From the IMG/VR virus record IMGVR_UViG_3300030419_007171, positions 1 to 37,828 of that record: a stretch of DNA of 37,828 bases. The stretch is one strand, 5' to 3'. Below the pieces are notes generated by a model, which ran no database searches, was not told the DNA's origin, and was given only the letters and a program-made list of their open reading frames with translations. The translations under genes were made by a program, and so were the position numbers. Source of the stretch: a virus. Positions 231 to 17,291 of this stretch are shown piece by piece (positions within the stretch are counted from its first letter, which is position 1; the number at the start of each line of letters is the position of its first letter).

Positions 231-578
231 ATGGATATGAAATTCGTCCCAAAAGGATGGGGGTTTGAAAAATGGATAGTTAATTGTGAGGAATATTGTG
301 GAAAGCTGCTTTATTTTGTCAAGGGCAAGCGATGCTCTTGGCATTACCATAAATTAAAAGACGAAGTTTTCTATATACAATCCGGCGAAATGCTGGTAAA
401 ATATTCAGATCACGACGATATAGATTTGGCAGAAGAAACTATTCTTCGTAAAGGCGATAGCTTCCACGTATATCGAGGACTTAGACATCAAATGCTTGCA
501 CTGGAAGATACTGAATTATTTGAGTTTTCTACGCAACATTTTGACAGCGATAGTCATAGAATTTTGAAAGGAGATTAA
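231..578 (+). CDS. Small cupin-domain protein (sugar-phosphate isomerase-like)
   Basis: This is a 115-residue single-domain cupin. Motif 1 is visible as WHYHKLKDEVFY with metal-ligand candidates H38, H40 and E45. Motif 2 is around GDSFHVYRGLRHQM with H86. Such proteins are bicupin-half relatives of type II mannose-6-phosphate isomerases and sugar epimerases, usually cytoplasmic and metal-binding. The start is supported by AAGAGG at 218-223 with a 7-nt spacer. The stop is followed directly by the ATG of the HAD phosphatase, so the two are probably translationally coupled. The sugar-gene neighbours suggest a role in making or supplying a sugar phosphate for GDP-mannose, but the substrate cannot be read from the sequence. 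A purely regulatory cupin is the alternative. Confidence 0.75.
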   Translation: MDMKFVPKGWGFEKWIVNCEEYCGKLLYFVKGKRCSWHYHKLKDEVFYIQSGEMLVKYSDHDDIDLAEETILRKGDSFHVYRGLRHQMLALEDTELFEFSTQHFDSDSHRILKGD

Positions 579-878
579 ATGATATATTATGTTGATATAG
601 ATGGTACCATTTGTACCAGTACAGAAGGCGATTATGAAAAAGCAGAGCCTTTTATGAAAAATATAAAGAAAATTAATAAATTGTATGATGAAGGAAACGA
701 AGTCGTATATTGGACAGCAAGAGGTTCGGTCACAGGTAAGGATTGGACAGAATTAACAACAAATCAATTAGAAAAGTGGGGAGTTAAATATCACAAGCTT
801 ATGCTAGGCAAGCCTCACTATGAATTGTTTATATGTGATAAAGCGGTAAATTCAAGGGACTTTTTTAATGACAAATAA
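579..878 (+). CDS. Small HAD-superfamily phosphatase of a polysaccharide cluster
   Basis: At 99 residues this is a minimal HAD phosphatase with no cap domain. Motif I is DIDGT (D6 nucleophile, D8 acid/base). Motif II is WTAR with T46. The lysine of motif III is probably K78 in GKP. Motif IV is ICDKA, where homologues commonly have a DD pair, so only D87 remains. Small HADs of this kind sit in capsule and LPS clusters and dephosphorylate sugar phosphates. The gene starts at the base after the cupin stop and overlaps the fucose synthase gene by 11 nt, which fits one co-translated set. The substrate is unknown. The missing second acid of motif IV leaves some doubt about activity. Confidence 0.75.
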   Translation: MIYYVDIDGTICTSTEGDYEKAEPFMKNIKKINKLYDEGNEVVYWTARGSVTGKDWTELTTNQLEKWGVKYHKLMLGKPHYELFICDKAVNSRDFFNDK

Positions 879-1797
879 AATACTGGTTACTGGCGGCACG
901 GGCATGATAGGAAATGCTTTGCAAAAAATCCTTCCAGATGCCATTTACATTTCTTCTCGGGACTACAATCTCCTAAACCAAGAGGAAACCGAAGCGATGT
1001 TCGTAGATCATCGACCAGATTATGTCGTGCATTTAGCCGCGCGCGTTGGTGGAGTAAAAGCTAATTATGATTATTTGGGCACATTTTTTACTGAAAACAT
1101 TCGCATAAACACAAACGTTTTGGACTTCTCAAGAAAATACGGCGCCAAAAAAGTAGTCTCTCTTTTAAGTACATGTGTATATCCAGATAGTGTATCCTAT
1201 CCACTAACAGAGGATCAAATAAACTCTGGAGAACCTCATCATACTAATTTTGCATATGCATATGCTAAAAGAATGCTGGATGTCCAATCCAGGGCTCTGA
1301 GGAAACAATATGGTTGCAATTTTGTTACTGCAATCCCAAATAACCTTTTCGGAGAACATGATTATTTTGATTTAGAAAATAGTCATGTAATACCAGCAAT
1401 TATAAGAAAGATACATGATGCAAAGGAAAATGGCACGACACCTGTATTTTGGGGCGACGGCACACCAAGGAGAGAATTTACATATTCTCAAGATCTAGCT
1501 AAAGTTTTGTTGTTTTTGCTAGAAAAATATGATGGAAAGCATCCCATTAATATAGGAAATACAGAAGAACTTTCTATATCTGAGGTTGTGGATATAGTTA
1601 GCGAAATTTTGGAATATAGTGGACCAGTACAATGGGATGATACAAAATTAAGAGGGCAATTTAGAAAGCCGTCGTCAAACAAAAAATTATTGGAGCTTGG
1701 ATGGAAAAAAGAAATGTATACAAACTTTAAACAAGCGTTAACAAACACTTGTGAATGGTATATAATGAACTATCCAAACATAAGAGGCATAGATTGA
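868..1797 (+). CDS. fcl: GDP-L-fucose synthase (GDP-4-keto-6-deoxymannose epimerase/reductase)
   Basis: This 309-residue protein has the usual family length. It has an N-terminal Rossmann motif GGTGMIG and a VHLAARVGG strand-turn. The catalytic set is S101, C103 (in STCVYP), Y130-x-x-x-K134 (YAYAK) and H173 (SHVIPAIIRK), matching the Ser/Cys/Tyr/Lys/His set of the known enzyme. It takes the product of GDP-mannose 4,6-dehydratase, epimerises C3 and C5, and reduces the 4-keto group with NADPH to give GDP-L-fucose. The ATG lies inside the end of the HAD gene. The stop TGA overlaps the TTG start of the dehydratase that makes its substrate, so the two pathway steps are encoded back to back. Confidence 0.93.
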   Translation: MTNKILVTGGTGMIGNALQKILPDAIYISSRDYNLLNQEETEAMFVDHRPDYVVHLAARVGGVKANYDYLGTFFTENIRINTNVLDFSRKYGAKKVVSLLSTCVYPDSVSYPLTEDQINSGEPHHTNFAYAYAKRMLDVQSRALRKQYGCNFVTAIPNNLFGEHDYFDLENSHVIPAIIRKIHDAKENGTTPVFWGDGTPRREFTYSQDLAKVLLFLLEKYDGKHPINIGNTEELSISEVVDIVSEILEYSGPVQWDDTKLRGQFRKPSSNKKLLELGWKKEMYTNFKQALTNTCEWYIMNYPNIRGID

Positions 1798-2783
1798 AGA
1801 CAGCATTGATAACAGGAATTACGGGCCAAGACGGATCTTATTTGGCAGAGTTTCTCCTTGACAAAGGTTATAAAGTCGTGGGCTTGAAAAGAAGAACGTC
1901 GACTATCTGCACAGAAAGAATTAATTCTATATACAACAACGAAAATTTCAAATTGGAATACTTTGATCTTAATGATACCGGCCGGATATATGAGCTTATA
2001 ATACAACATAAGCCAGATGAGATATATAATTTGGCGGCGCAATCTCACGTTAGAGTCTCTTTTGAAATACCGGAGCACACCGTCGACGCCGTGGCCATGG
2101 GTACTTTGCGACTCTTGAACGCTGCCAAAATGGTTGGAAAATCAGACGTAAGAATTTATCAAGCTTCTTCTTCAGAAATGTATGGTGATAATCCAAACTA
2201 TCCGTTTAATGAGGAATCTAGATTGATGCCCGCCTCTCCTTATGCATGCGGCAAAGTTTTTGCTCACAATATTATAAGGAACTATAGAGAATCTTATGGT
2301 ATGCACTGTAGTAGTGGAATTTTGTTCAATCACGAATCTCCAAGAAGAGGGGAGACATTTGTGACAAGAAAAATAACCAGGGCCGCGGCCAATATAGTTT
2401 ATGGCCTACAAGACAAGTTGTATTTAGGCAACTTAAACGCATCAAGAGACTGGGGATATGCAGGAGACTACGTAGAGGCGATGTGGCTGATGTTGCAACA
2501 AGATGTTCCTGATGATTATGTTATTTCTACTGGAGAAACACACACAGTTCGGGAATTTTTAGAGGTGGTTTTTGACTTAGCCGGTTTAGGAGATCCGATG
2601 AAATATGTGGAAATAGATACTAAATTTTATAGACCTCATGAGGTACCTTACCTACTGGGAGACTCATCAAAGGCCAAAAAGGTGCTGAATTGGCAACCAA
2701 AAACAAGTTTTACAGAATTAGCCGATATAATGTTGGAGCATGATCTGGCTGAAGTAGCCAAAAGTTTCCAACCGGGGTATTAA
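1794..2783 (+). CDS. gmd: GDP-mannose 4,6-dehydratase
   Basis: From the TTG at 1794 the protein is 329 residues and begins LKTALITGITGQDGSYL, with the NADP-binding glycine motif at the N-terminus as expected. Further motifs are NLAAQSHVRVSF, SSSEMYG, the Y-x-x-x-K catalytic pair in YACGK, and a C-terminal GDSSKAKKVLNW. I chose TTG because AAGAGG lies at 1782-1787 with a 6-nt spacer and the TTG overlaps the upstream TGA. An in-frame ATG at 1755 would add 13 residues unlike the family start and overlap the previous gene by 43 nt. It supplies the substrate of the adjacent fucose synthase. It is a paralogue of the fragment at 1-219. Confidence 0.92.
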   Translation: MKTALITGITGQDGSYLAEFLLDKGYKVVGLKRRTSTICTERINSIYNNENFKLEYFDLNDTGRIYELIIQHKPDEIYNLAAQSHVRVSFEIPEHTVDAVAMGTLRLLNAAKMVGKSDVRIYQASSSEMYGDNPNYPFNEESRLMPASPYACGKVFAHNIIRNYRESYGMHCSSGILFNHESPRRGETFVTRKITRAAANIVYGLQDKLYLGNLNASRDWGYAGDYVEAMWLMLQQDVPDDYVISTGETHTVREFLEVVFDLAGLGDPMKYVEIDTKFYRPHEVPYLLGDSSKAKKVLNWQPKTSFTELADIMLEHDLAEVAKSFQPGY

Positions 2784-3646
2784 TGTATAAATTTAATTCT
2801 ATAGGGATTGTTGGCCAGGGTTTTGTCGGCACAGCAGTTAGAGTAGGTTTCGAAAACAGAGTCACCGTCGAAACATACGACAAATACTCCAGAGAAAAAT
2901 CAACATGCTCTACTTTAGAGGAGTTGGTTGAGAGAACAAAAATGTTGTTTGTGTGTTTACCGACACCAATGAATCCAGATGGATCATGTGATACCTCAAT
3001 AATTGAAGAAACCATACTTAAGATTGATAATGTTGGAACAAAAGATCATGTGGTGATAATTAAATCAACAGTACTCCCGGGAACGACAGAAAAACTTAAT
3101 GATCGTTGCACAAAAATACAAGTTGTATTCAATCCCGAATTCTTAACTGAAGCAAATTATATTGAAGATTTTAAAAACCAGGCAAGAATAATACTGGGCG
3201 GCCCCCGTCCCGGGACAACGAAGGTAAAAACACTTTATAAAAAAGTATTTCAGGAAACGCCGATTATTAAAACCGGATCGACTATAGCAGAACTTGTGAA
3301 ATATTTTACAAATTGTTTTTTGGCGTCTAAAGTGAGTTTTGCGAATGAATTTAAACAAGTCTGTGACAAAGTGAATGCAGATTTCGACAAAGTAGTAGAA
3401 TATGCACTATATGATAAAAGAATTGGAAAAACACACTTCTCCGTACCAGGCCCAGACGGCAAGTTGGGCTTCGGCGGATCATGCTTTCCAAAAGATCTAA
3501 ACGCTTTTATAAGTTTAGCAATTGAAGCCGGCATCAATCCAGCAATAATGTCTGCGGCGTGGGAGAAGAATTTAGAACTAAGACCAGAGAAAGACTGGGA
3601 AAAACTGCTTGGAAGAGCAGTAAATTTTGCAAAAAAGGAGAAATAA
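2783..3646 (+). CDS. ugd: UDP-glucose/GDP-mannose 6-dehydrogenase family protein, short form
   Basis: The family oxidises a nucleotide sugar twice, using NAD, to a uronic acid. Visible are G11-x-G13-x-x-G16 (GQGFVG), the VCLPTPMNPDG strand, NPEFLTEANYIEDF at about 117-130 (catalytic Glu region), a K-x-x-x-N helix near KYFTNCFLASK, and the catalytic cysteine C234 in GFGGSCFPKD. The protein is 287 residues, while family members are usually about 390-450. The N-terminal and central domains are present, but the C-terminal nucleotide-sugar-binding Rossmann domain is absent. The gene ends cleanly at a TAA followed at once by another gene, so this is not an obvious frameshift. Its start overlaps the dehydratase stop by one base (TAATG). 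UDP-glucose versus GDP-mannose specificity cannot be decided. Confidence 0.87.
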   Translation: MYKFNSIGIVGQGFVGTAVRVGFENRVTVETYDKYSREKSTCSTLEELVERTKMLFVCLPTPMNPDGSCDTSIIEETILKIDNVGTKDHVVIIKSTVLPGTTEKLNDRCTKIQVVFNPEFLTEANYIEDFKNQARIILGGPRPGTTKVKTLYKKVFQETPIIKTGSTIAELVKYFTNCFLASKVSFANEFKQVCDKVNADFDKVVEYALYDKRIGKTHFSVPGPDGKLGFGGSCFPKDLNAFISLAIEAGINPAIMSAAWEKNLELRPEKDWEKLLGRAVNFAKKEK

Positions 3647-4103: not shown

Positions 4104-4421
4104 ATGACAACATTTTTATTAGTTTCAGTTTTATTACTGTCAATATCTGCAAATATTATACTAGTTTGGTATATAAAACGCCTTTTCCAGAAGATATTTT
4201 TTATATCAGATAATATAGATGATTTATTGGGCAACCTTGAAGGTTTTGCAGAACATCTTGAGAAGATACATTCTCTTGAAACATATTATGGTGATGAAAC
4301 CTTGCAGGCGCTGATCAGGCATTCTCAAAATATTGTTGAATATGTTGAGGGTTATAAAAATGTTTATAGCTTCACGGAAGAAGAAAACGACATGGAAGAG
4401 GATGATGCCGAGGAAATCTAA
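4104..4421 (+). CDS. Single-pass membrane protein, unknown function
   Basis: This 105-residue protein has one clear hydrophobic segment at about residues 3-25 (FLLVSVLLLSISANIILVWY), followed by basic residues (K25, R26) and a mostly acidic, helical cytoplasm-side tail that ends in many Glu/Asp. No signal-peptidase site is evident, so it is more likely an anchor than a secreted protein. No lysis family is recognisable: it has no lipobox and no second helix. It begins 3 nt after the zinc-ribbon stop and overlaps the sigma-factor start by 17 nt. A role in tethering a phage protein to the inner membrane, or as an unrecognised spanin or holin partner, cannot be excluded. Confidence 0.72.
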   Translation: MTTFLLVSVLLLSISANIILVWYIKRLFQKIFFISDNIDDLLGNLEGFAEHLEKIHSLETYYGDETLQALIRHSQNIVEYVEGYKNVYSFTEEENDMEEDDAEEI

Positions 4422-5094
4422 AAAGAAAGGTAAGTATTATTTTACCGAAGAACACGAGCAGGCCGTAATTGATTATGCAACAACATCTGATAATCAATTA
4501 AGGACAAAACTATATGTAGAGTGGTTAGAGCCTGCCTTTAATGAAATGGTCGACAAGATCGTTTTTACTTACAAGTTTAACAATTTACCAAACATAGACT
4601 TGTTACGAGAAGAATGCAAGGTGTATTTAACAACAATTCTGGATAAATATAATCCCAACAGGGGGTCAAAAGCATTCTCATATTTTAGTGTCATAACAAA
4701 AAATTGGTTCATACACAAAGTAAAGAAAAACTCTCAGGGCCTACGTAGAGAAATAGATCTCGATAACATGTCAAAAAGGCATGAAGAAGAGTTTATGACC
4801 GAGCAGCATGCCTATGTTGCAGAGAGAGAAGAACAAGAATTCTGGGAAAATTTATGGACAGAAATAGAATCGTGGGAAGTTGAAAACATGAGACCAAACG
4901 AAAGAAAGGTTTTATATGCGGTTCAAGAGTTACTTCAAAAACGAGATTCCATTGAAATTTTTAATAAAAAAGCTATTTATCTTTATATGAGGGAGATGAC
5001 CGGGCTCAATACAAAGCAGGTTGTTAACAATCTCAATAAACTAAGAAAAAAATATAGGAATTTTAAAACCAAGTGGGACAAAGGGGAAATATAA
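4405..5094 (+). CDS. 55: Late-transcription sigma factor, gp55-like
   Basis: The protein is 229 residues from the ATG at 4405; ATG 4402 is one codon earlier and equally in frame. GGAAGAGG immediately upstream supports this pair over an ATG 72 nt upstream inside the previous gene. Residues about 65-110 resemble sigma region 2: a helix (LREECKVYLTTILDKY), then NPNRGSKAFSYFSVITKNWF, the pattern that in T4-like gp55 binds core polymerase and the TATAAATA-type late promoter. A second helical unit at about 165-225 (RPNERKVLYAVQELL, then MTGLNTKQVVNNLNKLRK) looks like a C-terminal helix-turn-helix. It would direct host polymerase to late structural genes such as those downstream. Confidence 0.82.
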   Translation: MPRKSKKKGKYYFTEEHEQAVIDYATTSDNQLRTKLYVEWLEPAFNEMVDKIVFTYKFNNLPNIDLLREECKVYLTTILDKYNPNRGSKAFSYFSVITKNWFIHKVKKNSQGLRREIDLDNMSKRHEEEFMTEQHAYVAEREEQEFWENLWTEIESWEVENMRPNERKVLYAVQELLQKRDSIEIFNKKAIYLYMREMTGLNTKQVVNNLNKLRKKYRNFKTKWDKGEI

Positions 5095-5402
5095 AAGATT
5101 TAGAGTCATATCTAGAAGAGGCAATAACCAACATTAGAGATGACCGCGCGGTAACATTTAATCTCTTAAAAGAGATAATGGCCCTCATAGCAGACGACAA
5201 GACTCAACATGAGAGAATCGGAGCGGTAGCAGCAAAATATGTTGAAACCCTGCAGCGCTCCAATGAGCAGTTGGTTAAAATATCAGCCCTTATTCAGAAG
5301 AATGAAAAAGGCATTGAAGGCTTGTCTGCACGAGACAAAGATGAAATATTTGATATTATAAAGGGCCAAGAAGATGTCACAGAATCCACCACAGGGGAAT
5401 GA
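5073..5402 (+). CDS. Small helical phage protein, unknown function
   Basis: This 109-residue, nearly all-helical protein is charged and has heptad-like leucines (ESYLEEAITNIRDDR, then ETLQRSNEQLVKISALIQK), suggesting a coiled coil. I do not recognise a named family. The only standard start is GTG at 5073, inside the sigma gene. A good AAGGGG ribosome site at 5081-5086 lies downstream of that GTG and points at an ATA codon (5091), so the true start is uncertain by six codons. It overlaps the hub gene by 29 nt. It could be a tail-assembly helper or a transcription accessory. Nothing visible discriminates between these. Confidence 0.68.
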   Translation: MGQRGNIKDLESYLEEAITNIRDDRAVTFNLLKEIMALIADDKTQHERIGAVAAKYVETLQRSNEQLVKISALIQKNEKGIEGLSARDKDEIFDIIKGQEDVTESTTGE

Positions 5403-8298
5403 AACAAAAAAGACTCAGTTTCACCCCGGGGACTTGAATCCCGTTGAGAGACCATTTATTAGAAGGAGTTATGATGAAGATCTCACTTCTGGAATGGAAA
5501 CTCTTGTTGAGGCTGCAAGGTCTGTTTTTGACTACAATGTATTTGAAAGTGTTTCGAGACCGTTTAGAGCGATTGTTTTAAGAGATGAATCAAATTCTTT
5601 ATCTATACCAATAGAGGCTCGGAACAGAATAAATTCTATTGTTGCTGCAGGTTCTAGTGATGATGTTTCTGGTGTGCCGCCAAATGTAAAGATGGTTAGG
5701 TGCAGAATACCAGAGATCCATACATCACTCCCAGAGCCCGAAGATTATTTAGCAGATGAAAGTCAGCCATTGATTGATTTATATCCGCTGTTTGTTGGTA
5801 TAGTTCCAGAAGAAGAAGCAGAAGTACAACTTACTCCAGGGCAAATTGTAGAAGTTGATTATGGAAATTTAGACAACTTATCAGATCCAATTTTTGTTCG
5901 CAGCTTAAGTGCGCAAACGCCTTCCGGAGGAAACAAGCCAAATGGTCCGGGCAACGCCCCAGGGTCTGGAGGCAGCACTGGAACAAAAGCATTCGCAAAC
6001 TCTTGCGGCGGCGGATATCCAAGCTCACATGCTCCTGGCGCTCCTCTAAAGCATGTTCCATCGCCGGCACTAGGCAATGTCGGCCCAAAAATAAAACCAA
6101 GATATGCTCCTATAAGCCCCGATTCTAGAAGAGGGCAACTACCACAAGGCAAGGGAATGTTTCTTCTTGGTTTCAGGGGCTCAACGAAGCGAGGTAAAGA
6201 GTTTATGTTAAAACGCTGCCAGTGGGCAGGTCTAGGTTTTGTTTGCATTTTGTCTGTATCTCAGAAAAAAGGCCAGAAAACACAAATAAAGCGCCCTGAG
6301 ACAAATCGAAAAATAGGGAATTATTTAGCAAGTAATGGCGTTCAGGTGTTTTTGTGGGGGTTTCCACACTCAACACCAAAGGGCCATGTCCCAACAGCTG
6401 ATAAGCCTGCGGACTATAGAGAACACGAGTTCGCAAAAGCAATGTGTGAAGAAGCTGTAGCATGCGGCGCTTCTGGCGTTATTACAGATCCAGAGGCCGG
6501 CTATTTTAAGGGAAAGGGCCCAAGACTTTCTGGTTATCACAACAGAGCGGAACTAGCAGCACAAGCAGTAAAACATATTCAGATAATGAAACAATACGCA
6601 GATAAATATGGGCTTTCTTTAGGTATAACGAGCTACGGTGGAACCCCAGCCGCGCTATCAAAGTCCTTTCCATTTGAGTCTTTTGCCGCCAAGGATCCAT
6701 CTGGCAAAACTTATGCAGACTTTGCAATTCCTCAAGTTTATGCATCGAGAGGTAATGCGTCAAATTCATGGGCATCTGATGCAGGTGTAAAAAAATCATT
6801 GAAATGGTGGGCAGACACTGGGTTTGTAAATGTAATTCCAGCTTTAGGTTCGTATGGAAAAAATTGGCAATTTGATCCTGGTGGCCAAAGTAAGAAAAGC
6901 CCATCAAGAATGGCCATGGAGTCTCTTTATCCGCAGGACGCAATTGAACAAGGAAAATATGGTGGTACCGAAGATGGGACTGTTATGTGGTGGGAATGGG
7001 GTCTAGCAGATGATCATTTAAAAGTTTGGGGCCCGAGAAAAAGGTGGGACATAATCAAGTCTTTAGGCGATACGGCCCTAGCTGCAGCAGCAGAAGTAGC
7101 TGCAGAACAATCGACAGCAAGGTCAGATGCCCCTAAAGAACCAGAAAAATCAAGCCCAGAGGGATCTTCAGTTTCACCGCCACCCGCGCCAAAGTTTTTA
7201 AATGAAAAAGATGCTGAAGAAATGCTCCAAAGAGCACAATCAGAATTTAATAAGGCAGATGCAGATTCTAAGAAAGATCCACCCCCTCATGAGTTTGAAA
7301 CAGCTCTTGAACGCGCTGAATTTGCACTACAAGAAGCGAAAAAGGTTTTGGAAAAGGTGAAGGCAGGCGAAAAGATACCGGACAAGACAATGCATGTGTC
7401 TGCTCCAGTTCAGCCATCTGCAAAATCCAGTTCTACGTGTTCTGCAACTGCCGGCCCGGCCGGCGGGGAAACGGCCGCTTTGGGCGCCGCAGGAAATGTT
7501 ACAACTAAACCAAAAATGAAGAGAGTAAAAATTCAATTGGATCGTCCAAGATACGGCACCCGGGGCGCCCGAGAAGGTTGGTGCGCAGAAACTGTAAGAA
7601 TGAGAGAAGACGTAGCAGGAAATCTCCAACAGATTGTAAATATAGTTCATGAATTGGGGGGAGTTTTTATATCCGCCGGCGCCGGAAGAGGATTAGGGGC
7701 GTCAAAGCCAAAGCCCGGAGGAGGAAGAGTTTTAACATCTTTTCACTATACAAACCTCGCTATTGATCTCCATACTGTTATGGCATGTTCAGCAAATACA
7801 GCACATACAAAGCCAGAAATTGATGAATATGTATGCACTTTCGATCCCGTTAAGAGAGGTACACACGGTCCATTATTTATTGTTTGGGCGAGATCGGATA
7901 AGCCGCCAGGAACTATCGTGACACGAAAGGGCCCAGATGGAAAAGAAATTAAATTCGAAGTACAAAGGCTAACTCTACCAGCGATTATTTCAAATAAGAC
8001 AAAGGGGGAAAAACCCTATACGAAAGAAATTACTGGCAATTATTTTAATTTAACTGCGATCATGAATTCATACGGATTTAGGAACATTGGTGGAAGGAAA
8101 GGATGGTATAAGAACAGCCGCGGCGCATCTGAATGGTGGCATTTTCAGGCAGATAGTGAAGCCACAGGTGTTATAAAAAACAAAACAACTTTTGGTGATG
8201 TTTTGGAAACGATGCACGAAAGAGAAGTTCTTTTAACAAAGCCGGTTGCAGAGGCCTTAAATTACATTTGGGTTGGTACTTATTTTAAAAAGAGGTAA
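5374..8298 (+). CDS. Baseplate hub-like protein with two predicted wall-degrading domains
   Basis: The 974 residues divide into parts. At about 55-185 is a beta-rich N-terminal domain ending GQIVEVDYGN and DPIFVRSL, resembling the gp5-type OB fold. At 188-255 is a Gly/Pro/Ser linker. At about 260-565 is a TIM-barrel hydrolase-like domain with strand GVQVFLWGFP, a D372-P-E374 acidic pair in VITDPEAGY, IPQVYASRG and VMWWEWG. At about 610-665 is a charged coiled coil, followed by an Ala/Gly linker. At about 715-974 is an M15-type peptidase with H791 and D798 (HYTNLAID, the HxxGxAxD pattern with Asn for Gly) and E920/H923 (EWWH). M15 enzymes are zinc carboxy- or endopeptidases of peptidoglycan. 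The likely role is to cut the cell wall during DNA entry. The barrel family is uncertain (GH25-like acidic motif only). ATG 5374 follows AAGAAG. Confidence 0.78.
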   Translation: MSQNPPQGNETKKTQFHPGDLNPVERPFIRRSYDEDLTSGMETLVEAARSVFDYNVFESVSRPFRAIVLRDESNSLSIPIEARNRINSIVAAGSSDDVSGVPPNVKMVRCRIPEIHTSLPEPEDYLADESQPLIDLYPLFVGIVPEEEAEVQLTPGQIVEVDYGNLDNLSDPIFVRSLSAQTPSGGNKPNGPGNAPGSGGSTGTKAFANSCGGGYPSSHAPGAPLKHVPSPALGNVGPKIKPRYAPISPDSRRGQLPQGKGMFLLGFRGSTKRGKEFMLKRCQWAGLGFVCILSVSQKKGQKTQIKRPETNRKIGNYLASNGVQVFLWGFPHSTPKGHVPTADKPADYREHEFAKAMCEEAVACGASGVITDPEAGYFKGKGPRLSGYHNRAELAAQAVKHIQIMKQYADKYGLSLGITSYGGTPAALSKSFPFESFAAKDPSGKTYADFAIPQVYASRGNASNSWASDAGVKKSLKWWADTGFVNVIPALGSYGKNWQFDPGGQSKKSPSRMAMESLYPQDAIEQGKYGGTEDGTVMWWEWGLADDHLKVWGPRKRWDIIKSLGDTALAAAAEVAAEQSTARSDAPKEPEKSSPEGSSVSPPPAPKFLNEKDAEEMLQRAQSEFNKADADSKKDPPPHEFETALERAEFALQEAKKVLEKVKAGEKIPDKTMHVSAPVQPSAKSSSTCSATAGPAGGETAALGAAGNVTTKPKMKRVKIQLDRPRYGTRGAREGWCAETVRMREDVAGNLQQIVNIVHELGGVFISAGAGRGLGASKPKPGGGRVLTSFHYTNLAIDLHTVMACSANTAHTKPEIDEYVCTFDPVKRGTHGPLFIVWARSDKPPGTIVTRKGPDGKEIKFEVQRLTLPAIISNKTKGEKPYTKEITGNYFNLTAIMNSYGFRNIGGRKGWYKNSRGASEWWHFQADSEATGVIKNKTTFGDVLETMHEREVLLTKPVAEALNYIWVGTYFKKR

Positions 8299-8302
8299 CA
8301 AT

Positions 8303-9238
8303 ATGACATCGAAACAATCTATTAACAGAACAGGGCAAGATAGAAAGCGCCTCGCAATACAACAACAGCGAGAACGAAAAAAAGATATTATGTTGAACGG
8401 CGTTGCTTGTGGAAAACTAGAAGAAGCAATACCAGTGTTTATTCAAGCTCCTAATGAAAAAGTAATATCAGGAAAGAATAACTCTCATATTGTTTTCGGC
8501 CGCGACCGCCCATCAGATCGTTTAAGCGGCTACGGTGGCAAGGGAGACACACAAGCCGGGATGATAGACTTGGTTGTCGGAAGAGGAGACAATAACGATC
8601 CCCGCCAAGTCGATGAAAAAAACAGGGCTGTTTATGTAAATCCGGATTTTACAAATGACTCTGCTAGGATATATATTAGTCAAAAGACAGATATTGATGA
8701 AAATTTTAAAATTACAGGAGGAAGTCTTGGCAACCAAAAGGCAAGATCGGCAATTGGAATTAAAGCAGATGCTGTTAGAATAATAGGTCGAGATGGAATT
8801 CAGCTTATAACAAGAACTGATTTAAAAAACTCTATGGGCGTACCCGCAGAGTCTGGCGTGCGAGGCATCGACCTGATCGCGGGAAACGATGATTCGGATT
8901 TGCAACCTATCGTCAAAGGCGATTCTCTTGTAGAAGCCATAAATCAGGTGATTAGGCATCTTAATAATTTAAATGGAATAGTTGATGGAATGTTAATGAT
9001 TCAAAGTGACTTTAATGAAGCACTACAGGACCATTGGCATTTTTCTCCATATTTTGGAATTCCAACTTCTGCATCACCAGTTGCACAAACAGTAGGAAAA
9101 GTCACGGCTATAAATCATTTACAAAAAACAAAAGAAGATTTATGGAAGCACAAGAGAAATTTAATAGGATTTAAGAAAAATCATTTAGAGAAAAGCGGCA
9201 AAAAATATATCTGTAGTAGATATAATAACGTTAATTAA
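8303..9238 (+). CDS. Probable hub-associated or spike-like virion protein
   Basis: This protein is 311 residues from the ATG at 8303. AAGAGG at 8290-8295 with a 7-nt spacer fixes that start over a GTG 30 nt upstream. The N-terminus is strongly basic (RTGQDRKRLAIQQQRERKK). The middle is beta-rich with short alternating hydrophobic strands (ARIYIS, SAIGIKADAVRIIGRDGIQLITR, GIDLIAGND), the kind of pattern seen in beta-helical needle or spike proteins. The C-terminal part is helical (LVEAINQVIRHLNNLNG) and ends basic. It follows the hub-lysin gene, which has no C-terminal beta-helix of its own, so this may be the piercing spike. That assignment is inference. I know only that similar genes occur near baseplate genes of marine phages. 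Confidence 0.65.
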   Translation: MTSKQSINRTGQDRKRLAIQQQRERKKDIMLNGVACGKLEEAIPVFIQAPNEKVISGKNNSHIVFGRDRPSDRLSGYGGKGDTQAGMIDLVVGRGDNNDPRQVDEKNRAVYVNPDFTNDSARIYISQKTDIDENFKITGGSLGNQKARSAIGIKADAVRIIGRDGIQLITRTDLKNSMGVPAESGVRGIDLIAGNDDSDLQPIVKGDSLVEAINQVIRHLNNLNGIVDGMLMIQSDFNEALQDHWHFSPYFGIPTSASPVAQTVGKVTAINHLQKTKEDLWKHKRNLIGFKKNHLEKSGKKYICSRYNNVN

Positions 9239-9244
9239 AATATA

Positions 9245-12200
9245 ATGGCAGAACGAAAACATAATATATCGACATCCGAAGAGAAACTTCCAACCCCGGG
9301 CCCAACAATGACCTCGGAAGAAGAGATCTCTGCAAGCGAAGAAGTGATAAATCACAAATGGAATTTAGACGAAGCGACAAATATATATAAAAACGCACGC
9401 AAGGCATTTACAGAAAAACATATCGAACCATCATCTGAAGGTATGGTTAAGCAACGAGCCGACTCAGATCTGTGGAAAGAAAAAAGATACAAAAATAGCC
9501 AATCCTGGGCGATTGTTTTTAGCAGGGATGCGGATGAAGTTGCCACTTTAGCAGTAAAATCATGGGCCGTCGAACAAGACATTTGGAAAGCATCTGGATT
9601 GTCAAATGACAAGATAAGCCTTTTGGAGGTTGGAGTAGCTTGGCGAACAGTTCGTTATATTGATCACCCTTTATTTAAAAAGCTTCTTCCGACAGTTTCT
9701 GAACCCGGGTCGGAGCCGACAGAAAAAAACGCTAATATACCAGAACAAAAAGTTGTTGGCCCTCCGATCATAACTAATCAGAAGGCTGTACCGGCCCCAC
9801 TCGCAAGCAAGGAAATAACTACTGAGACTGAAGAGGAGGAACTCCCAGGTCCTCCACCAGAGGCTAAAAGTACAATAGCTTATGGTTCAGAGCCTCAGAA
9901 AAAAACAGGAAAAATCATTTCAGATTGGACAAAATCCGGTGTTAACAAATTCACTCCATATTTTAATGCCATCAAGCAAGAATACAGATTGGCGATAAAA
10001 ACACAATATTCAGGCACTGGCGGAGAGGAAGAATCACCGGAGTATATCTCCAGGGCCCAAGAGATTAAAACAGGGGCCTGCGTGTGGCTGTTGGATTTCT
10101 TTTTTAAAGAATATGACCAGGAGCTTTTAACTAAGCTGGTGAAGTTATCAGATCACGAATACCACATAAAAAATCGACCAAATGCGAATATGAAGGCTCT
10201 TATCAAAGTACCAGCAAAATATTTTGATGCCATTCCAACAAGACAAGAGAATTTTGATTTTGATGATGAAAATATAACAAAACGTCGTGTCAACTTATCA
10301 AGCGCAGAGTTTGAGAGTCATATTAATTTTGTACATTCTGAATTTAAAAAATACAAACAGCTAGTAAAGAATTCAAATGTTGTTATAGAATACGGCCCAA
10401 TGTGGGATCATCCTGGTGCCCATCTTGATTATGAAGACTTAGCAGAGGGTGTACATGACGTGTTTGATGCCATTGTAAATTTATTTGAGTATAACAACTT
10501 AAAGATAAGGCCGGACAAAGACGACTTGATAGAGATTGGCTTTTCTCGTGGATTTAGAGAAATTACTTATGTTTTATACGGAGATTCGGACAAAGAGGTT
10601 ATTGAAATGCTTCCGCTTAGGTTCGGTTACAACGCCTTTAGCGAAGAATTACAAAAATATACATCTCGCGCGTCAAGAGGTATCATATATTATTTGCCAA
10701 AAATTATTGATCATGTTACCAAAAATCCGGGCAATGATAGATGGCACAAGATAACCTCAAGATTCATAAGGCCGAATGTAAATATCGTTCCTGGTGCCGC
10801 GCCTCCGGACCCCAAGGAAGAAACGACCGAAGAGACGGTAGAAAAAACCCGCAAACAAAAAATATCAGATCCAGAAAAAGTATATGTAACTCAAGAAGAG
10901 AAAATAATTGAAGACGCCGCTGTTGATAATCAACAAATAAGGGCCGACATTGAAAGCAAGAGAAAGGTTGAAAGCGATCCTGTTAGTCAGCCACCTCCGA
11001 GAGATTTAAAAACTACTGATGAAGAATATGTACACAAATATAGTCAAACAGAGTATGATAAAACAGCGGCATTAGCAATATCCTGCTTATTAAAGGTTAT
11101 GCCAGAAGCAGAACTTCTTCTAGCCTTAAAGGATACTATAGTACAAATTGAACCAGATTTTGATTTCTCTTCATCAAACTGGAGATCACGAGGCATCCGA
11201 ATAGCAATGCCAAAATTAGAAAATCCAGGTCTCCCCGCCATGGCGGAATGCTATAGCATGAAATGGCCATCCGGCCGAAACCCAAATTTGAATATACCTG
11301 ATATTGATTGGCCAAGTGTCAAATTGCCATCTTTAAAATTGCCAAGTTTGGATAAATTAACATGGTGCACGACGGATAACTCTCCGATGTTTAGTGACAC
11401 CCTAAGCGATGCCGCTGAAGATTTAGCAAATGCCCTAGGAGGCGTTATGGAATCCCTAATTGGCCTGGCCACATTTCCAGAGACTTGCGATGATTTAGAG
11501 CAAATGCTAAATGAATTTGGTACCATTTTAGATGAACTAGGAGAGTTGAGAGATAAAATATGCGCCGCATTGGAAGTAAAACTAGGTTTAAAACCAGGCC
11601 TCTGCCCGGACGATTTTGTTGACGATATGCTCGGTAGTCTGTCAAGAGATGAACTCAAGGATATGCTAGAGGGCAATGCGAGTGACGAAGCCATGGATCA
11701 TCTAGATGATTTGCTAGCCAAACATTCATTACCCTTAGAAAATCCGGGCCCGTTTTTTAAAAATCTGGGGAAGAAAATAGAACCCGATCTATTTCCTCAA
11801 GGCTTTGCCTGCTCCCCGGCATTTCAAAAGGGACTTTGCACAGACGATGCCTTTCAACAACTAATAAACAAAAAGCGAAGGTTGTTAGCCGGAGACGGAA
11901 CAACAGAGGATCAGATTAACAAGCAACTGCAGAAAGAGAGTGAAAACAGAATAAAATCTCTTAAGAATCTAGCTGAACTTTTAAATGCAGACAATTTGGA
12001 CCATCTTATGCCTCCAGACAAAGCATGCGAAGAAGATGCAGCTATTAAGGAACTGCATGCCGAGTTGAATGAGTCGGCATTGAGTCCTCCAAAACAGTCT
12101 CTTATATCAAAAGAGCCAGAGTCTATTTCACATATGACGGACAAGGTGATAAATCAGATATACGCCGGCACCGAAGCAGCATTTGATACAGATTGCGCGG

Positions 12201-15067
12201 CATATCTGGAGTCTCTAATCGTAACCCAGGAGGAAACTCATTCTAAAATTCCATACTATAAGTTATCTACAGATGGCCTAGAATTCGTCGATCCAAAGAC
12301 AGAAAATGTGGGCAGGGTAATCGATCCCACAACAGATCCTCATACAATTGGTTTAAGTGCGGGGGAACAGGTCACAACAACAGATTACGACCCATCAAAA
12401 AATTCTACTGGCGAAAATGGACTTATTATTGCACCAGAAAACCAAGAAACAATTCGAACTCAAAAGGTGCTTCCACACCTTAAACAAAGTTTGGTTAATT
12501 TTAGTAGTAACCATTTTAATTTTTCTGGATCAACATTTTATAATTTTGATGCTGATGTACCAGGCTTCTCTGAGCCGATCTTGACTTTTACCACTAATCA
12601 ACCGGACCAACAACAGGGAAAATTAGACACTTCGAAAATGACAGTTAAAGAAGTCATCTCTATTCCATTTACAACAGAACAAGAAGAAGAACAGCTAGCA
12701 AAGCCCTCTTACGGAGACCCAATAATATATGAGACAACATCAACCTCTCAAGCGCCAGTTGAATTCAGGGCGAAGATAGAAGAAATGGATATAATGCCGG
12801 ATTCTAATACTTTGGCTCCTCAAGCCCAGGTATTTTCAAAAATGTTATTGAAAAACATCCCTTCTGAAATCAAAAATGATACTATTAGAGGAAACTTGGA
12901 AAGTTTTTGGCCAGAAAACTACGCAGAATATCAAAGATATTTTGCTAGGCTGATATCGGAAGCAGATTTCTTTAATAAATCAGTTTTAGATAAACTCTCT
13001 CTTGTTCCTCCATCAGATTCTGAAAAAGAAATCGCTCCCTGCAAGGGAATTCCGAAAAAAAGTTTATTGGATCTTGATGGAATAAAAACAAAAGTGAAAG
13101 AGGCATATAACGAGGGTAAATCTTGCGATCCGGAACCAAAAAATATAGAAGAATCCAAAAAGATGTCCCCGCTCGAAAAAGCAGGTGTCGAAGGCGCGGT
13201 TTATACAACGATAAGATTATTTGTGGTAGAGGTCCTGCTGAACGCTGCCCCGGTATTTTCTGTCTTTAAGGCAGAAGATATTTGCAAGGACCAACTATTT
13301 CTGGAGTCGATGCTTAAAAGAGTGGCAGATAGTTTAAAGAATTTTGATGCAGAATTTTATGATGATTTGGCTAGCCAAGCATTAAAGTCGTTGAATAAAA
13401 AGCTTGAAAGAGATGGCGAACTAAAAGACCCGATAACCGAAGAAGACGTCGACTTAATCCGCGGAACGGACGCTATAAAATATATAATTAAACAACAGTT
13501 ATTGGCAGTGTCAGATGATATCGACGATATATTTGGCCCAGAAGTAAGTGCAGATTCACTCCTTAAAGATAAGATACTAAACAAATGGATCGGCCCAGAA
13601 CAAACAATACCAGAAGTGGAGCTTGATCCAAGAGGAACGGGCCGATATGTAACGCAACCAAGGTTCTCGAAAAGCGTTGGCGCCGACCCTAATTTATTCG
13701 GATATATTACTAAACAGGAAGAGGACCTGGATGAATTTAAAAACGGGCAATTTTTCTTGGAGAAATATTTCAAAATTGAAGAGAAAGACGGCGTATCTGC
13801 TTTCGATAGTGAAATTCCAGAATATTTAAGAGGCGTTGTCAACATAAAACAATGGCAAGAATGGGCTAAATGGAATATAAAAGATGATCATAAGTATGTG
13901 AATTTAGAGGGGAGGCTTAACATAAAGATGGGCGCCCGACTTATGTATTTGCCGCCAACAGAAGAATCTCCTTGGAAAACAACACAAGCAGAAATCTTGG
14001 CCATAGACGAACTTGGGGGCTGGTCTCAAGCGCAATTTATAGGATCTTATGACCTGAACACAGATGATGGTTTATTTCCTGGTAAAACTTTAGACGACCC
14101 AATTGCCCTACAAAATAAGGCATATGCCATTACTGAATTTAGGCAAAATGGACTTTCGGAAAAATTCAGCGATTCCGGCGATCAAATTTATGAACGTGAC
14201 AGAGAGCGCGTCGTAAATCCAATTCCGATTATAGTGGTAGAAAAATCGGCACACGAAGTCTTAGCAAAAGCAGGAATTGAAAATTTCGGAGATCTTAAGG
14301 ACAATGAAGTCGACTGGACAAGAATAACGATAGAAAATAATCCAACTACCGATTGGTATAGTCCAGAAAGCATAGAGGTTATTTCTGAATTTCTCGCACT
14401 AAAAGAAGAATTAAAAAACTCAGAAGAATTCGACATTGTATTTGATTATTGTTATAGTATGTCAAGATTATCAGCATTATTTACAGTGTATTGCATGGCT
14501 GTTACAAGATCCTCAGATATGACAATAAAATCAATTTTTGATCCCACGAAAGCAGCACTCAGAGAATTAATTTATACTTTAATGGAAGTAAGCTCAACAG
14601 ATCAATATTATTCTTATAAAACTCCGGACCAGGCAAAAAACGGATCCAATGCCGAAATGAAAAAAACAGTGGACAATGTTGTGTCAACTGATGGTCCAAT
14701 CGGATTTCCGATGGCACAACGAATGGCAGCCAACACAATTCCGATTATGATCAAGGGTTACGCCGAGCGTTCAGATCCATCTATTAAATTAATGAAATCT
14801 CTGGATCTACCAACGGTTTGGTCTTCTGTGCCATACGTTTTGCCAATGAATGTTTTCGGCCCACCTCCGTTCGGAATTGGCATTGGCCCGCCACTAACTC
14901 CATTAGGGTTTTTAACGCTAGGGTTTAATTTTAAGACTCCATATGAAAAATATAGAGAAAGAAATGAACCAGAAAGTAATTATTCTAAGAAGCTGCAGCC
15001 AATAAGTGAGACAGATCCACAGTCGGGCTCAGAATGCGATCCAGAAATTAAAGAGGAGCCAGAATAA
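9245..15067 (+). CDS. Giant baseplate-region structural protein, unknown family (1940 residues)
   Basis: No known domain is recognisable with confidence. The N-terminal part (1-145) is helical. An acidic Pro/Glu linker spans about 149-219. A folded region at about 225-510 includes YEDLAEGVHDVFDAIVNLF and IEIGFSRGFREITYVLYG. A second linker spans about 515-585. Next comes a short repeat, WPSVKLPSLKLPSLDKL (689-705), then a Cys-containing, very acidic helical region (710-940), a beta-rich middle, and a long helical C-terminal part ending in a hydrophobic Pro/Gly segment (VLPMNVFGPPPFGIGIGPPL). No signal peptide is seen. It lies between the hub/spike genes and gp25 and overlaps gp25 by one base, so it probably belongs to the baseplate. 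A tube-tip or tape-like role is possible. The ribosome site is weak. Confidence 0.75.
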   Translation: MAERKHNISTSEEKLPTPGPTMTSEEEISASEEVINHKWNLDEATNIYKNARKAFTEKHIEPSSEGMVKQRADSDLWKEKRYKNSQSWAIVFSRDADEVATLAVKSWAVEQDIWKASGLSNDKISLLEVGVAWRTVRYIDHPLFKKLLPTVSEPGSEPTEKNANIPEQKVVGPPIITNQKAVPAPLASKEITTETEEEELPGPPPEAKSTIAYGSEPQKKTGKIISDWTKSGVNKFTPYFNAIKQEYRLAIKTQYSGTGGEEESPEYISRAQEIKTGACVWLLDFFFKEYDQELLTKLVKLSDHEYHIKNRPNANMKALIKVPAKYFDAIPTRQENFDFDDENITKRRVNLSSAEFESHINFVHSEFKKYKQLVKNSNVVIEYGPMWDHPGAHLDYEDLAEGVHDVFDAIVNLFEYNNLKIRPDKDDLIEIGFSRGFREITYVLYGDSDKEVIEMLPLRFGYNAFSEELQKYTSRASRGIIYYLPKIIDHVTKNPGNDRWHKITSRFIRPNVNIVPGAAPPDPKEETTEETVEKTRKQKISDPEKVYVTQEEKIIEDAAVDNQQIRADIESKRKVESDPVSQPPPRDLKTTDEEYVHKYSQTEYDKTAALAISCLLKVMPEAELLLALKDTIVQIEPDFDFSSSNWRSRGIRIAMPKLENPGLPAMAECYSMKWPSGRNPNLNIPDIDWPSVKLPSLKLPSLDKLTWCTTDNSPMFSDTLSDAAEDLANALGGVMESLIGLATFPETCDDLEQMLNEFGTILDELGELRDKICAALEVKLGLKPGLCPDDFVDDMLGSLSRDELKDMLEGNASDEAMDHLDDLLAKHSLPLENPGPFFKNLGKKIEPDLFPQGFACSPAFQKGLCTDDAFQQLINKKRRLLAGDGTTEDQINKQLQKESENRIKSLKNLAELLNADNLDHLMPPDKACEEDAAIKELHAELNESALSPPKQSLISKEPESISHMTDKVINQIYAGTEAAFDTDCAAYLESLIVTQEETHSKIPYYKLSTDGLEFVDPKTENVGRVIDPTTDPHTIGLSAGEQVTTTDYDPSKNSTGENGLIIAPENQETIRTQKVLPHLKQSLVNFSSNHFNFSGSTFYNFDADVPGFSEPILTFTTNQPDQQQGKLDTSKMTVKEVISIPFTTEQEEEQLAKPSYGDPIIYETTSTSQAPVEFRAKIEEMDIMPDSNTLAPQAQVFSKMLLKNIPSEIKNDTIRGNLESFWPENYAEYQRYFARLISEADFFNKSVLDKLSLVPPSDSEKEIAPCKGIPKKSLLDLDGIKTKVKEAYNEGKSCDPEPKNIEESKKMSPLEKAGVEGAVYTTIRLFVVEVLLNAAPVFSVFKAEDICKDQLFLESMLKRVADSLKNFDAEFYDDLASQALKSLNKKLERDGELKDPITEEDVDLIRGTDAIKYIIKQQLLAVSDDIDDIFGPEVSADSLLKDKILNKWIGPEQTIPEVELDPRGTGRYVTQPRFSKSVGADPNLFGYITKQEEDLDEFKNGQFFLEKYFKIEEKDGVSAFDSEIPEYLRGVVNIKQWQEWAKWNIKDDHKYVNLEGRLNIKMGARLMYLPPTEESPWKTTQAEILAIDELGGWSQAQFIGSYDLNTDDGLFPGKTLDDPIALQNKAYAITEFRQNGLSEKFSDSGDQIYERDRERVVNPIPIIVVEKSAHEVLAKAGIENFGDLKDNEVDWTRITIENNPTTDWYSPESIEVISEFLALKEELKNSEEFDIVFDYCYSMSRLSALFTVYCMAVTRSSDMTIKSIFDPTKAALRELIYTLMEVSSTDQYYSYKTPDQAKNGSNAEMKKTVDNVVSTDGPIGFPMAQRMAANTIPIMIKGYAERSDPSIKLMKSLDLPTVWSSVPYVLPMNVFGPPPFGIGIGPPLTPLGFLTLGFNFKTPYEKYRERNEPESNYSKKLQPISETDPQSGSECDPEIKEEPE

Positions 15068-15462
15068 TGTCAGGTTTATCGCCAAAACTACCTTTACATC
15101 CAGATTCTTTAGACGGATATGCCCTAAATAAAAATTATAGAGAGCTTATTCAACAAAATTTAAAATGCCTTTTGCTAACAAATCCCGGCGAAAGGATAAT
15201 GGAACCAGAGTTCGGAGTCGGAGTGCTTAGATATATGTTTGAAATAAACGATCCAGTCACTTATGGAAGGATTGTGTCTAAGATTGAGGAGCAGGTAGAG
15301 ATATATATGCCATTCGTGCGCATAGTTAATCTTGATGCATCTCCCTCTCTCGGGCCAGACCTAGATCCGTCAAACTCGAATGCAATGAGAATAAAGTTGC
15401 AATATGAAATAATGCCATTAGGAATTTCAGATATTATAGAAATAATTGATAAATTGGCCTAA
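15067..15462 (+). CDS. 25: Baseplate wedge protein, gp25-like
   Basis: At 131 residues it has the length of the GPW/gp25 family, the wedge component that contacts the sheath and starts its assembly, and a relative of TssE in type VI secretion. The core helix-turn is present: NLKCLLLTNPGERIMEPEFG at about 31-50, with GER at 41-43 and EPEFG at 46-50, the counterpart of the conserved EPR-type motif, followed by GVGVLRYMFE. The C-terminal half has the beta strands of the domain (MRIKLQYEIMP). The start overlaps the giant gene's stop (TAATG), and gp6 follows after 26 nt. The T4-like gp25-gp6 pair identifies this stretch as baseplate core. Confidence 0.93.
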   Translation: MSGLSPKLPLHPDSLDGYALNKNYRELIQQNLKCLLLTNPGERIMEPEFGVGVLRYMFEINDPVTYGRIVSKIEEQVEIYMPFVRIVNLDASPSLGPDLDPSNSNAMRIKLQYEIMPLGISDIIEIIDKLA

Positions 15463-15488: not shown

Positions 15489-17291
15489 ATGGCCAAGAAA
15501 AAAAACATACCTGTAAACTACACAAGTAGAGATTTCGATACGATAAAGAGCGATTTAGTAAACATCGCCACAAGATACTACCCCGACACATTTCAGGACT
15601 TTAACGAGGCTTCATTTGGAGCGATGATGTTGGACACAGTTGCTTATGTCGGAGATATTTTATCTTTTTATTTGGACTATCAAGCTAATGAATCTTTTTT
15701 AGATACAGCAGTAGAATATGATAATCTTCTAAAATTAGGAAAGCAAATAGGTTTTAAATTTGAGCAGACGCCGGCCTCTCACGGGTTGGTGGATTTATTT
15801 ATCTTGGTACCCGCCGCAGCAACAGGTTTAGGTCCAGATTCGGCTTATATTCCCATTTTGCGCCGCGGCGCTGAATTCGAGTCTGTCGATGGAGTCTTAT
15901 TTTCGCTAGTAGAAAACGTTAATTTTGCAGATTCTACAAACGAGATTGTAGTTGCGGAAGTTGATTCAACAACGGGAATTCCAACCCAATATGCAATAAA
16001 GGCTCAAGGCACCGTAGTATCCGGACAAATATCTTCTGAACAAATAACAATTGGAGCATATCAAAAATTTCTTTCTGTGAATTTATCCGATGGTTCCAAT
16101 ATAACAGAAATAGTTTCGGTGTATGACTCTGAAGGAAACAGGTACTATGAGGTGGATTATTTATCTCAAAATGTTGTTTATAAAGAAATCCTCAATAAAG
16201 GCGCCGATAACGAACAAGTTAAGTCATTAATGAAGCCGATGATTGTTCCAAGAAGATTTGTTGTAGACCAGAGCCTCGGAGACACAACACTTCAATTTGG
16301 TTATGGATCAGAAGCCACAACCACCAGCAAGGTTGTATCAGATCCTTCTTCTGTTGTATTGAAGCAGCACGGAAAAGATTATACATCTGACAGTAGTTTT
16401 GATCCATCTAAATTGATAGAGACTGATAAATTTGGTATTGCACCAGCAAACACAACGTTAGAAGTATTCTATAGATATAACACAGCAGGAAATGTCAATG
16501 TTTTCACGGGCATGTTAACAATCGTTGGATCTAGAAGTTATATTTTTCCGAACGAAGACGCAATCAACGCAAGTAAAAGAGGAGATGTTGTAACTTCTTT
16601 AGAAGTTTCAAATCCAGAACCAATTGTTGGAGATATAACATTTCCAAACACAACAGAGCTTAAACAAAGAATTTTAGCAACCAACGCTTCACAAAATAGG
16701 GCAGTAACAAGAGAAGATTATATAAATCTTTGTTACAGAATGCCGGCTAAGTTTGGAAAGGTAAAAAGGGTCAATATAATTCAAGATAACGATTCTTTTA
16801 AAAGAAATTTAAATTTATATGTTTTATCTGAATCCCCCAACGGAAATTACGCTCCGGCAACTGATACATTAAAGCAAAATCTTAAGGTATGGTTGAATAA
16901 AAATAGAATGATAAATGACACTGTTGACATTCTGGATGGAAAGGTTGTTAATTTAGGGATCAAATATGTTGTTCGATCCGATTCATTTTCAAACCCAAAA
17001 GATTTAATGACTTTAATAAATTCTATTTTGGCCAAATATATCGATGACCATAAGTATGATATTGGAGAGCCGTTTTCTATATCCACCATTTTTAAAGTTA
17101 TAGGGTCCGTAACGGGAGTTGAGGACATTGTTACCATTAAGGTTGAGCAAAAAACGGGATCAATTTATTCTGATGTTTTATTTGATATAGATGCCGCCAC
17201 TTCGGCAGATGGAAGAGTTATATATGCACCAGAGAATGTAGCATTTGAAATCGCCTCCACAGATGCAGATATTGAAGGAACAGTTAGGTAA
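15489..17291 (+). CDS. 6: Baseplate wedge protein, gp6-like (baseplate J family)
   Basis: The 600-residue protein begins NYTSRDFDTIKSDL, followed by a helix pair with FNEASFGAMMLDTVAYVGD and FYLDYQANESFLDTA. This is the characteristic N-terminus of gp6-type wedge proteins of marine T4-like phages. Near residue 405, AVTREDYINLC begins the C-terminal J-like domain, with the paired strands expected (KVVNLGIKYVVR). In T4, gp6 forms the inner ring that joins wedges around the hub. AAAAGGG in the 26-nt gap provides the ribosome site. The gene ends in TAATG, overlapping the next start by one base. Confidence 0.93.
   Translation: MAKKKNIPVNYTSRDFDTIKSDLVNIATRYYPDTFQDFNEASFGAMMLDTVAYVGDILSFYLDYQANESFLDTAVEYDNLLKLGKQIGFKFEQTPASHGLVDLFILVPAAATGLGPDSAYIPILRRGAEFESVDGVLFSLVENVNFADSTNEIVVAEVDSTTGIPTQYAIKAQGTVVSGQISSEQITIGAYQKFLSVNLSDGSNITEIVSVYDSEGNRYYEVDYLSQNVVYKEILNKGADNEQVKSLMKPMIVPRRFVVDQSLGDTTLQFGYGSEATTTSKVVSDPSSVVLKQHGKDYTSDSSFDPSKLIETDKFGIAPANTTLEVFYRYNTAGNVNVFTGMLTIVGSRSYIFPNEDAINASKRGDVVTSLEVSNPEPIVGDITFPNTTELKQRILATNASQNRAVTREDYINLCYRMPAKFGKVKRVNIIQDNDSFKRNLNLYVLSESPNGNYAPATDTLKQNLKVWLNKNRMINDTVDILDGKVVNLGIKYVVRSDSFSNPKDLMTLINSILAKYIDDHKYDIGEPFSISTIFKVIGSVTGVEDIVTIKVEQKTGSIYSDVLFDIDAATSADGRVIYAPENVAFEIASTDADIEGTVR

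Follow-up and report, generated by a model that had tools for sequence, protein, structure and literature searches.

A Probable Baseplate Hub Protein Carrying a Predicted Glycoside Hydrolase-Type Barrel and an M15-Type Peptidase Domain in an Uncultured T4-Like Virus

Introduction

The closest described counterpart of the protein studied here is gp5 of phage T4, which lies in the baseplate hub and is built of an N-terminal small beta-barrel, a wall enzyme (a lysozyme domain) on linkers, and then a needle (PMC3004832). The OB domain of gp5 is five-stranded, and a protease cleaves the single chain between Ser351 and Ala352, within the linker that joins the lysozyme to the needle (PMC3004832). In related marine myophages, the gp5 of pelagimyophages was found to be highly divergent, which was taken as a probable adaptation to the host wall; the available text of that paper holds no domain analysis of the gp5 clusters, no split needle and no multi-enzyme hub (PMC7029224). 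Virion lysins with two enzymes are also on record. One example is CwlP of SP-beta, which appears in the reference list of PMC5380687. In such lysins, glycan-cutting and peptide-cutting domains are joined in one virion protein, as in the protein reported here, but the enzyme families are others and the protein is not a gp5-type hub with an OB-like base.

With regard to the enzymes themselves, Cwp19 of C. difficile is a lytic transglycosylase that acts on peptidoglycan and has a GHL10 domain (PMC6016235; PDB 5oq2, 5oq3), and the GH18 motif is defined as DxxDxDxE with a catalytic Glu (PMC4373397). An earlier reading of one viral gene (the original prediction) had proposed a hub protein in which an OB-like domain, a barrel hydrolase and an M15 peptidase are joined, so that both the glycan and the peptide parts of peptidoglycan would be cut. 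The present analysis bore out this proposal in part: the architecture, the hub assignment and the M15 signature stood, and catalysis by the barrel was left at likely.

Results and Discussion

Genomic Setting of the Hub Gene

The window analyzed was the whole virus record IMGVR_UViG_3300030419_007171 (37,828 bases), which may be only part of a larger genome. The features considered are given in Table 1. The hub gene had a stop-free translation, and its product is called P0001.

Table 1. Positions of the hub gene, its domains and motifs, and the neighboring genes in the window.
Feature	Position	Strand	Remarks
gp55-like late-transcription sigma factor	4333..5094	+	Upstream synteny marker
Small helical protein	5073..5402	+	Conserved, directly 5' of the hub gene
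P0001, probable hub protein, 974 aa	5374..8298	+	OB-like domain, GH-type barrel and M15-type peptidase domain
Domain 1, residues 1-185	5374..5928	+	Conserved hub domain, predicted OB-like; homologues and AlphaFold
Linker, residues 186-254	5929..6135	+	Gly/Pro/Ser-rich, predicted disordered; pLDDT 31-38 over most of it
Domain 2, residues 255-570	6136..7083	+	Predicted (beta/alpha)8 barrel of glycoside-hydrolase type; AlphaFold model mdc4cebcc8bef, Foldseek, VIA
End of strand 4, residues 368-374, GVITDPE	6475..6495	+	Contains D372 and E374
Linker between barrel and peptidase	7084..7515	+	Two predicted helices (about 611-634 and 639-663); pLDDT mostly 64-80, alignment-free AlphaFold
Domain 3, residues 715-974	7516..8295	+	Predicted M15-type (LAS clan) zinc peptidase domain
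Putative zinc-ligand motif 1, H791 ... D798	7744..7767	+	Invariant, 39 sequences
Motif 2, E920-W-W-H923-F-Q	8131..8148	+	Putative catalytic Glu and third zinc ligand; invariant, 39 sequences
Probable needle protein, separate gene	8303..9238	+	ORF 8273-9238, probably starting at ATG 8303; profile matches the C-terminal region of single-chain hubs
gp25-like baseplate wedge protein	15067..15462	+	
gp6-like baseplate wedge protein	15489..17291	+	

P0001 gave no significant match against Pfam, NCBIfam, PHROGs or the PDB sequences. The PHROGs scan of the hub and needle proteins was empty, and no record matching the hub or the needle was found in a collection of 50,697 phage genomes. Direct searches of viral contigs with the whole of P0001 or with its single domains were empty as well, and relatives were reached through alignments of gp6 and gp55 instead. 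Relatives of the sigma factor included a gene of Ochrobactrum phage vB_OspM_OC annotated as RNA polymerase sigma factor for late transcription. The gp6 of the window shared 30-32% identity with its counterparts in Microcystis phage Mel-JY01, Flavobacterium phage immuto and one uncultured phage; with those in uncultured virus contigs, identity was about 50%. The gene order in these contigs was sigma factor, small protein, variable protein (~250-1350 aa), conserved ~320-aa protein, very long ORF, gp25 and gp6. P0001 is the variable protein of this order, and its gene lies in the baseplate operon near gp25/gp6, the position of a T4 gp5-type hub. An ORF of 1940 aa belonging to no known family occupies 9245-15067, between the needle and gp25, and its counterparts in relatives range from ~930 to 3200 aa. 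Upstream of the tail genes, at 231-3646, sugar-nucleotide genes (two epimerase/dehydratases, UDP-glucose/GDP-mannose dehydrogenase and phosphoheptose isomerase) were present together with a cysteine dioxygenase gene.

The Conserved Base

The domain 1 region (P0001 ~20-178) was common to about 145 distinct proteins in an iterative profile search, which was needed because pairwise BLAST often barely links these homologues. The carriers were uncultured T4-like viruses, and the genes were mostly found at the same site, between the gp55-like late sigma factor and the gp25/gp6 genes. Conserved features included the hydrophobic strand AIVLR, RIPExH, a Pro-x-Pro turn and PGDxVxVDF.

AlphaFold run on the whole of P0001 without an alignment reached a pLDDT of only 36, and the model used here was built with 47 sequences and covers residues 1-575, i.e., domains 1 and 2. 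The pLDDT of domain 1 in this model was mostly 77-95 from residue 10 onward, and five beta strands were predicted (64-71, 104-111, 139-144, 158-165 and 170-177). The OB domain of T4 gp5 likewise has five strands (PMC3004832), and an OB-like fold is predicted for domain 1. The fold-search lists for residues 1-575, from which gp5 was absent, were filled by barrels and hence are uninformative on domain 1; a PDB sequence search with domain 1 gave no notable match. Taken together, homology, synteny and the model of residues 1-575 supported the hub assignment and the architecture (small beta-barrel, predicted TIM barrel and M15-type domain), and the three-part layout goes beyond chance.

A Separate Gene for the Probable Needle

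Two results went beyond the original prediction: the needle is a separate gene, and P0001 is a member of a large family with exchangeable enzymes. The needle gene directly follows the hub gene and is conserved in the lineage; the name "needle" for its product is a probable one, suggested by domain order and sequence character. The needle profile matched the C-terminal part of the single-chain hub-position proteins L054, L061, L062, L064, L069, L075 and L083 (E 3e-16 to 1.5e-23), and the N-terminal part of these proteins showed weak similarity to domain 1 (E 0.02-0.34). According to these matches, hub and needle form one chain without a recognized enzyme in distant relatives, whereas in the lineage of the window the base with its enzyme and the needle are encoded by two genes. 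In T4, the needle is in the same chain as the rest of gp5. Judging from domain order and sequence character, the gene split probably lies at the place that corresponds to the gp5 cleavage junction. A short hub-position protein of 255 aa, apparently without an enzyme, was also observed in a relative (L042, 1973-2737).

The Barrel Domain

In the AlphaFold model, domain 2 is a beta/alpha barrel in which most strands are confident and residues 496-533 are weak. A structure prediction and a comparison of residues 260-565 with glycoside hydrolase families had been proposed as a check, and these gave a TIM barrel with Cwp19 and GH18 chitinases as the best matches. Cwp19 was the best Foldseek match in the PDB (E 1.6e-8) and the top match of VIA-align against the PDB (Z 17.8, 266 residues aligned, 4.2 A). 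The GH18 chitinases followed within one unit, with VIA Z values of about 16-17.5 over 244-273 residues, and SleL was also among the best PDB fold matches. By fold comparison, the predicted barrel is thus both of GH18 type and similar to the GHL10 barrel of Cwp19. As the scores are about equal, GH18, GHL10 and other GH barrels are inseparable by fold alone. Although Cwp19 is the closest solved structure, it is only 11% identical to the P0001 barrel, and in Cwp19 the barrel is part of a surface protein that also bears CWB2 repeats. No Pfam match was obtained for the barrel alone at E values up to 10, whether GHL10 (PF02638) or GH18, and searches of the PDB with the domain 2 sequence, or of phage records with domains 2 and 3, were empty or not meaningful.

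The named residues D372 and E374 are in place in VITDPEAGY (from 369). Strand 4 covers 368-371 and is immediately followed by D372-P-E374; GH18 enzymes keep their acid after strand 4, and a D-x-E acid pair at this site is shared with GH18 chitinases and SleL. However, residues 367-374 (S-G-V-I-T-D-P-E) read SxxIxDxE, so that P0001 has two of the four acids of DxxDxDxE and differs from the full GH18 motif. Homologues of domain 2 were confined to other hubs, namely L197 (E 4e-19), L154 with its near-copies L165 and L166 (E 1e-7), and L094 (weak). Further scans recovered only the same hubs, and a scan of genome contigs gave no bacterial relative of domain 2.

The Peptidase Domain

Domain 3 contains H791 and D798 in HYTNLAIDLH and H923 in EWWHF (from 920), as originally read. 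In 39 aligned sequences, R772, S789, H791, A796, D798, E920, W921, W922, H923, F924 and Q925 were invariant. The metal and catalytic set H-x6-D and E-x2-H of M15 and LAS-clan enzymes is therefore present, and VanX and other M15 enzymes have the same spacing. The M15 signature put forward for H791, D798 and H923 is strongly supported at the level of sequence; domain 3 would accordingly be expected to bind zinc and to act as a peptidase.

The closest viral homologues of domain 3 were found in two other hubs, L198 (E 3e-22) and L224, and a genome scan gave homologues at 55 bacterial loci; those examined by Pfam consist of PG_binding_1 and domain 3. No Pfam M15 match was obtained for P0001, L198 or the bacterial homologues. 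Thus, domain 3 shares the invariant H(x6)D and E-W-W-H set with VanY, VanX and LysB4, but falls below Pfam M15 detection and belongs to a bacterial PG_binding_1 family. The bacterial peptidases of this type (L234-L288) are spread across many phyla, with PG_binding_1 where examined, and their catalytic part has no Pfam match. A PDB profile search with domain 3 gave weak matches (E 0.27 and up), nearly all to hedgehog, plus the endolysin LysB4. Hedgehog and LysB4 belong to the same fold class as M15 peptidases. Orthology with hedgehog was rejected, as the matches reflect the HYxGRAxD motif common to the LAS fold.

Exchangeable Enzymes in the Hub Family

Pfam was applied to 102 proteins from the hub position; this set may include a few that are neighbors rather than hubs. 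The matches were VanY (16), Amidase_2 (10), M23 (6), M15_4 and SLT (4 each), Phage_lysozyme, Phage_lysozyme2 and DUF2272 (2 each), and Muramidase and M74 (1 each). Most of the domain 1 proteins that could be classified end in recognized wall hydrolases. Local profiles added further members as well as GDSL/SGNH-like domains in 14 hubs, and left 69 of 148 proteins unclassified. By the same profiles, at least two recognized domains were present in nine hubs: M15 and amidase (4), SGNH and amidase (2), SGNH and SLT (1), barrel and amidase (1), and barrel, amidase and M23 (1). GDSL/SGNH-like domains lay beside an amidase or SLT domain at residues 351-519 of L096, 303-507 of L169 and 245-429 of L195; in L195, GDSL and SLT were also detected by Pfam, GDSL below the curated cut-off. 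Such domains possibly strip acyl groups from sugars before cutting. In the hubs L087 and L153, a long unclassified region lies after domain 1 and before an M15-type domain and appears by eye to be alpha/beta hydrolase-like (GHSNGG in L087).

The combination of barrel and M15 domains seen in P0001 occurred in no other hub of the set. The nearest was L094, with a barrel and a Pfam M15_4 match, although its M15 part is not of the domain 3 family. When hub pairs with 50-90% identity in domain 1 were compared, the remainder was without detectable similarity in 44 of the 64 pairs, which indicates domain exchange. From these comparisons, the tail tip resembles a socket into which different wall-cutting tools can be plugged.

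Domain 1 genes between the sigma factor and the needle numbered one in 110 loci, two in seven (L110, L117, L149, L195, L204, L215 and L225) and three in four (L097, L103, L107 and L192). Tandem copies within a genome shared 46-74% identity in domain 1 in the listed pairs, and the remainder was mostly without detectable similarity. The tandem hubs of L192, for instance, carry one amidase, one M15 domain and one unrecognized part. Since gp5 of T4 forms a trimer, which is bound to gp27 in the virion, a trimer of mixed subunits would be an attractive reading of these genes. VgrG heterotrimers are mentioned in the available text of T6SS papers. It may tentatively be proposed that the gp5 gene was divided to give an OB-like base and a needle as separate products, that nearly every kind of wall hydrolase can be mounted on the base, singly or as two to three consecutive enzymes, and that in some genomes duplicated or triplicated bases form a heterotrimer with different enzymes in one spike; we hold this broader picture to be possible, with the odds somewhat against it.

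Proposed Mechanism and Alternative Explanations

As a whole, the results are probably explained by P0001 being the central cell-puncturing hub subunit, with two linker-borne wall enzymes, of an uncultured T4-like contractile-tailed virus. P0001 would then correspond in function to the first two thirds of the T4 gp5 chain, located in the virion and presumably trimeric. The OB-like domain 1 would dock in the baseplate hub above the needle, which has a gene of its own, and the two enzymes would hang from this base on flexible linkers. In the original prediction, the linkers might also release the enzymes. The first, the GH18/GHL10-type TIM barrel, would cut the glycan strand of peptidoglycan, and the second, the M15-type zinc peptidase, would cut the stem peptide or a cross-link. 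On tail contraction, the needle would pierce the outer membrane of the host, and both domains would open the wall locally for DNA entry. Against this explanation, P0001 has no direct sequence match to gp5, to GH18/GHL10 or to the Pfam M15 models, it has just two of the four DxxDxDxE acids, and E374 is missing from two distant barrel homologues. In place of the lysozyme of T4 gp5, it has a predicted TIM barrel and an M15-type peptidase domain.

Two rival readings concern the barrel. D372 and E374 had been read as a catalytic signature; the pair does lie at the GH18 acid position, but it is kept only in the closest homologue, L197, since L154 has EPT, with E and T at these sites, and L094 has neither. 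We lean towards a catalytically active barrel and predict activity as the likelier state. The hub and the peptidase could also be right while the barrel is non-catalytic, or a former glycosidase that binds glycan strands or a surface polysaccharide and positions the peptidase. The change of E374 to T in L154, the loss of the motif in L094 and the retention of only D372/E374 out of DxxDxDxE favor such a binding domain, as does the presence among the best VIA rows of the chitinase-like imaginal disc growth factor 2, AgBR1 and Ym2, all of which we take not to hydrolyze. Since L197 retains not only D and E but also the PQxY and strand-8 WWEW motifs, and L154 has two further wall enzymes and could tolerate a lost barrel activity, we regard a non-catalytic barrel as rather unlikely.

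A barrel that is active on capsule or another surface polysaccharide instead of peptidoglycan, in which case the hub would remove an outer layer ahead of wall cutting by the peptidase, appears less likely still. Many GH families match the fold about equally, and the GDSL/SGNH domains of sister hubs could remove esters from surface sugars, but the top fold match, Cwp19, is a peptidoglycan enzyme, and by analogy with T4 a hub deep in the baseplate would reach the wall rather than the capsule. Finally, P0001 might be an endolysin lying by chance in a tail operon, given that wall-enzyme domains are present and that wall-binding domains accompany domain 3 in its bacterial homologues. This would be very improbable in view of the conserved N-terminal domain and position in more than 100 loci, the adjacent needle gene, and the proteins of distant relatives in which hub and needle form a single chain; synteny and the common N-terminal domain led us to reject an endolysin.

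Conclusions

P0001 is a variant of the gp5-type hub, and multi-enzyme virion lysins are already known elsewhere. The original prediction knew of no description of this exact arrangement. In agreement with it, a literature search that covered few subscription journals, and is weak evidence to that extent, found no paper with an OB base, a GH barrel and an M15 peptidase together, or with a split needle.

The likely hub role of P0001 suggests that a contractile-tailed virus could retool wall breaching by swapping or stacking enzymes on one base, and so track the wall chemistry of its host. In the hub family, uncultured viruses provide a catalogue of enzymes that cut the wall. It also provides a natural test of whether the maturation cleavage between enzyme and needle in T4 may be replaced by a gene split. 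Furthermore, because the bases of the tandem hubs are similar and their enzymes unrelated, a viral spike of mixed subunits becomes directly testable.
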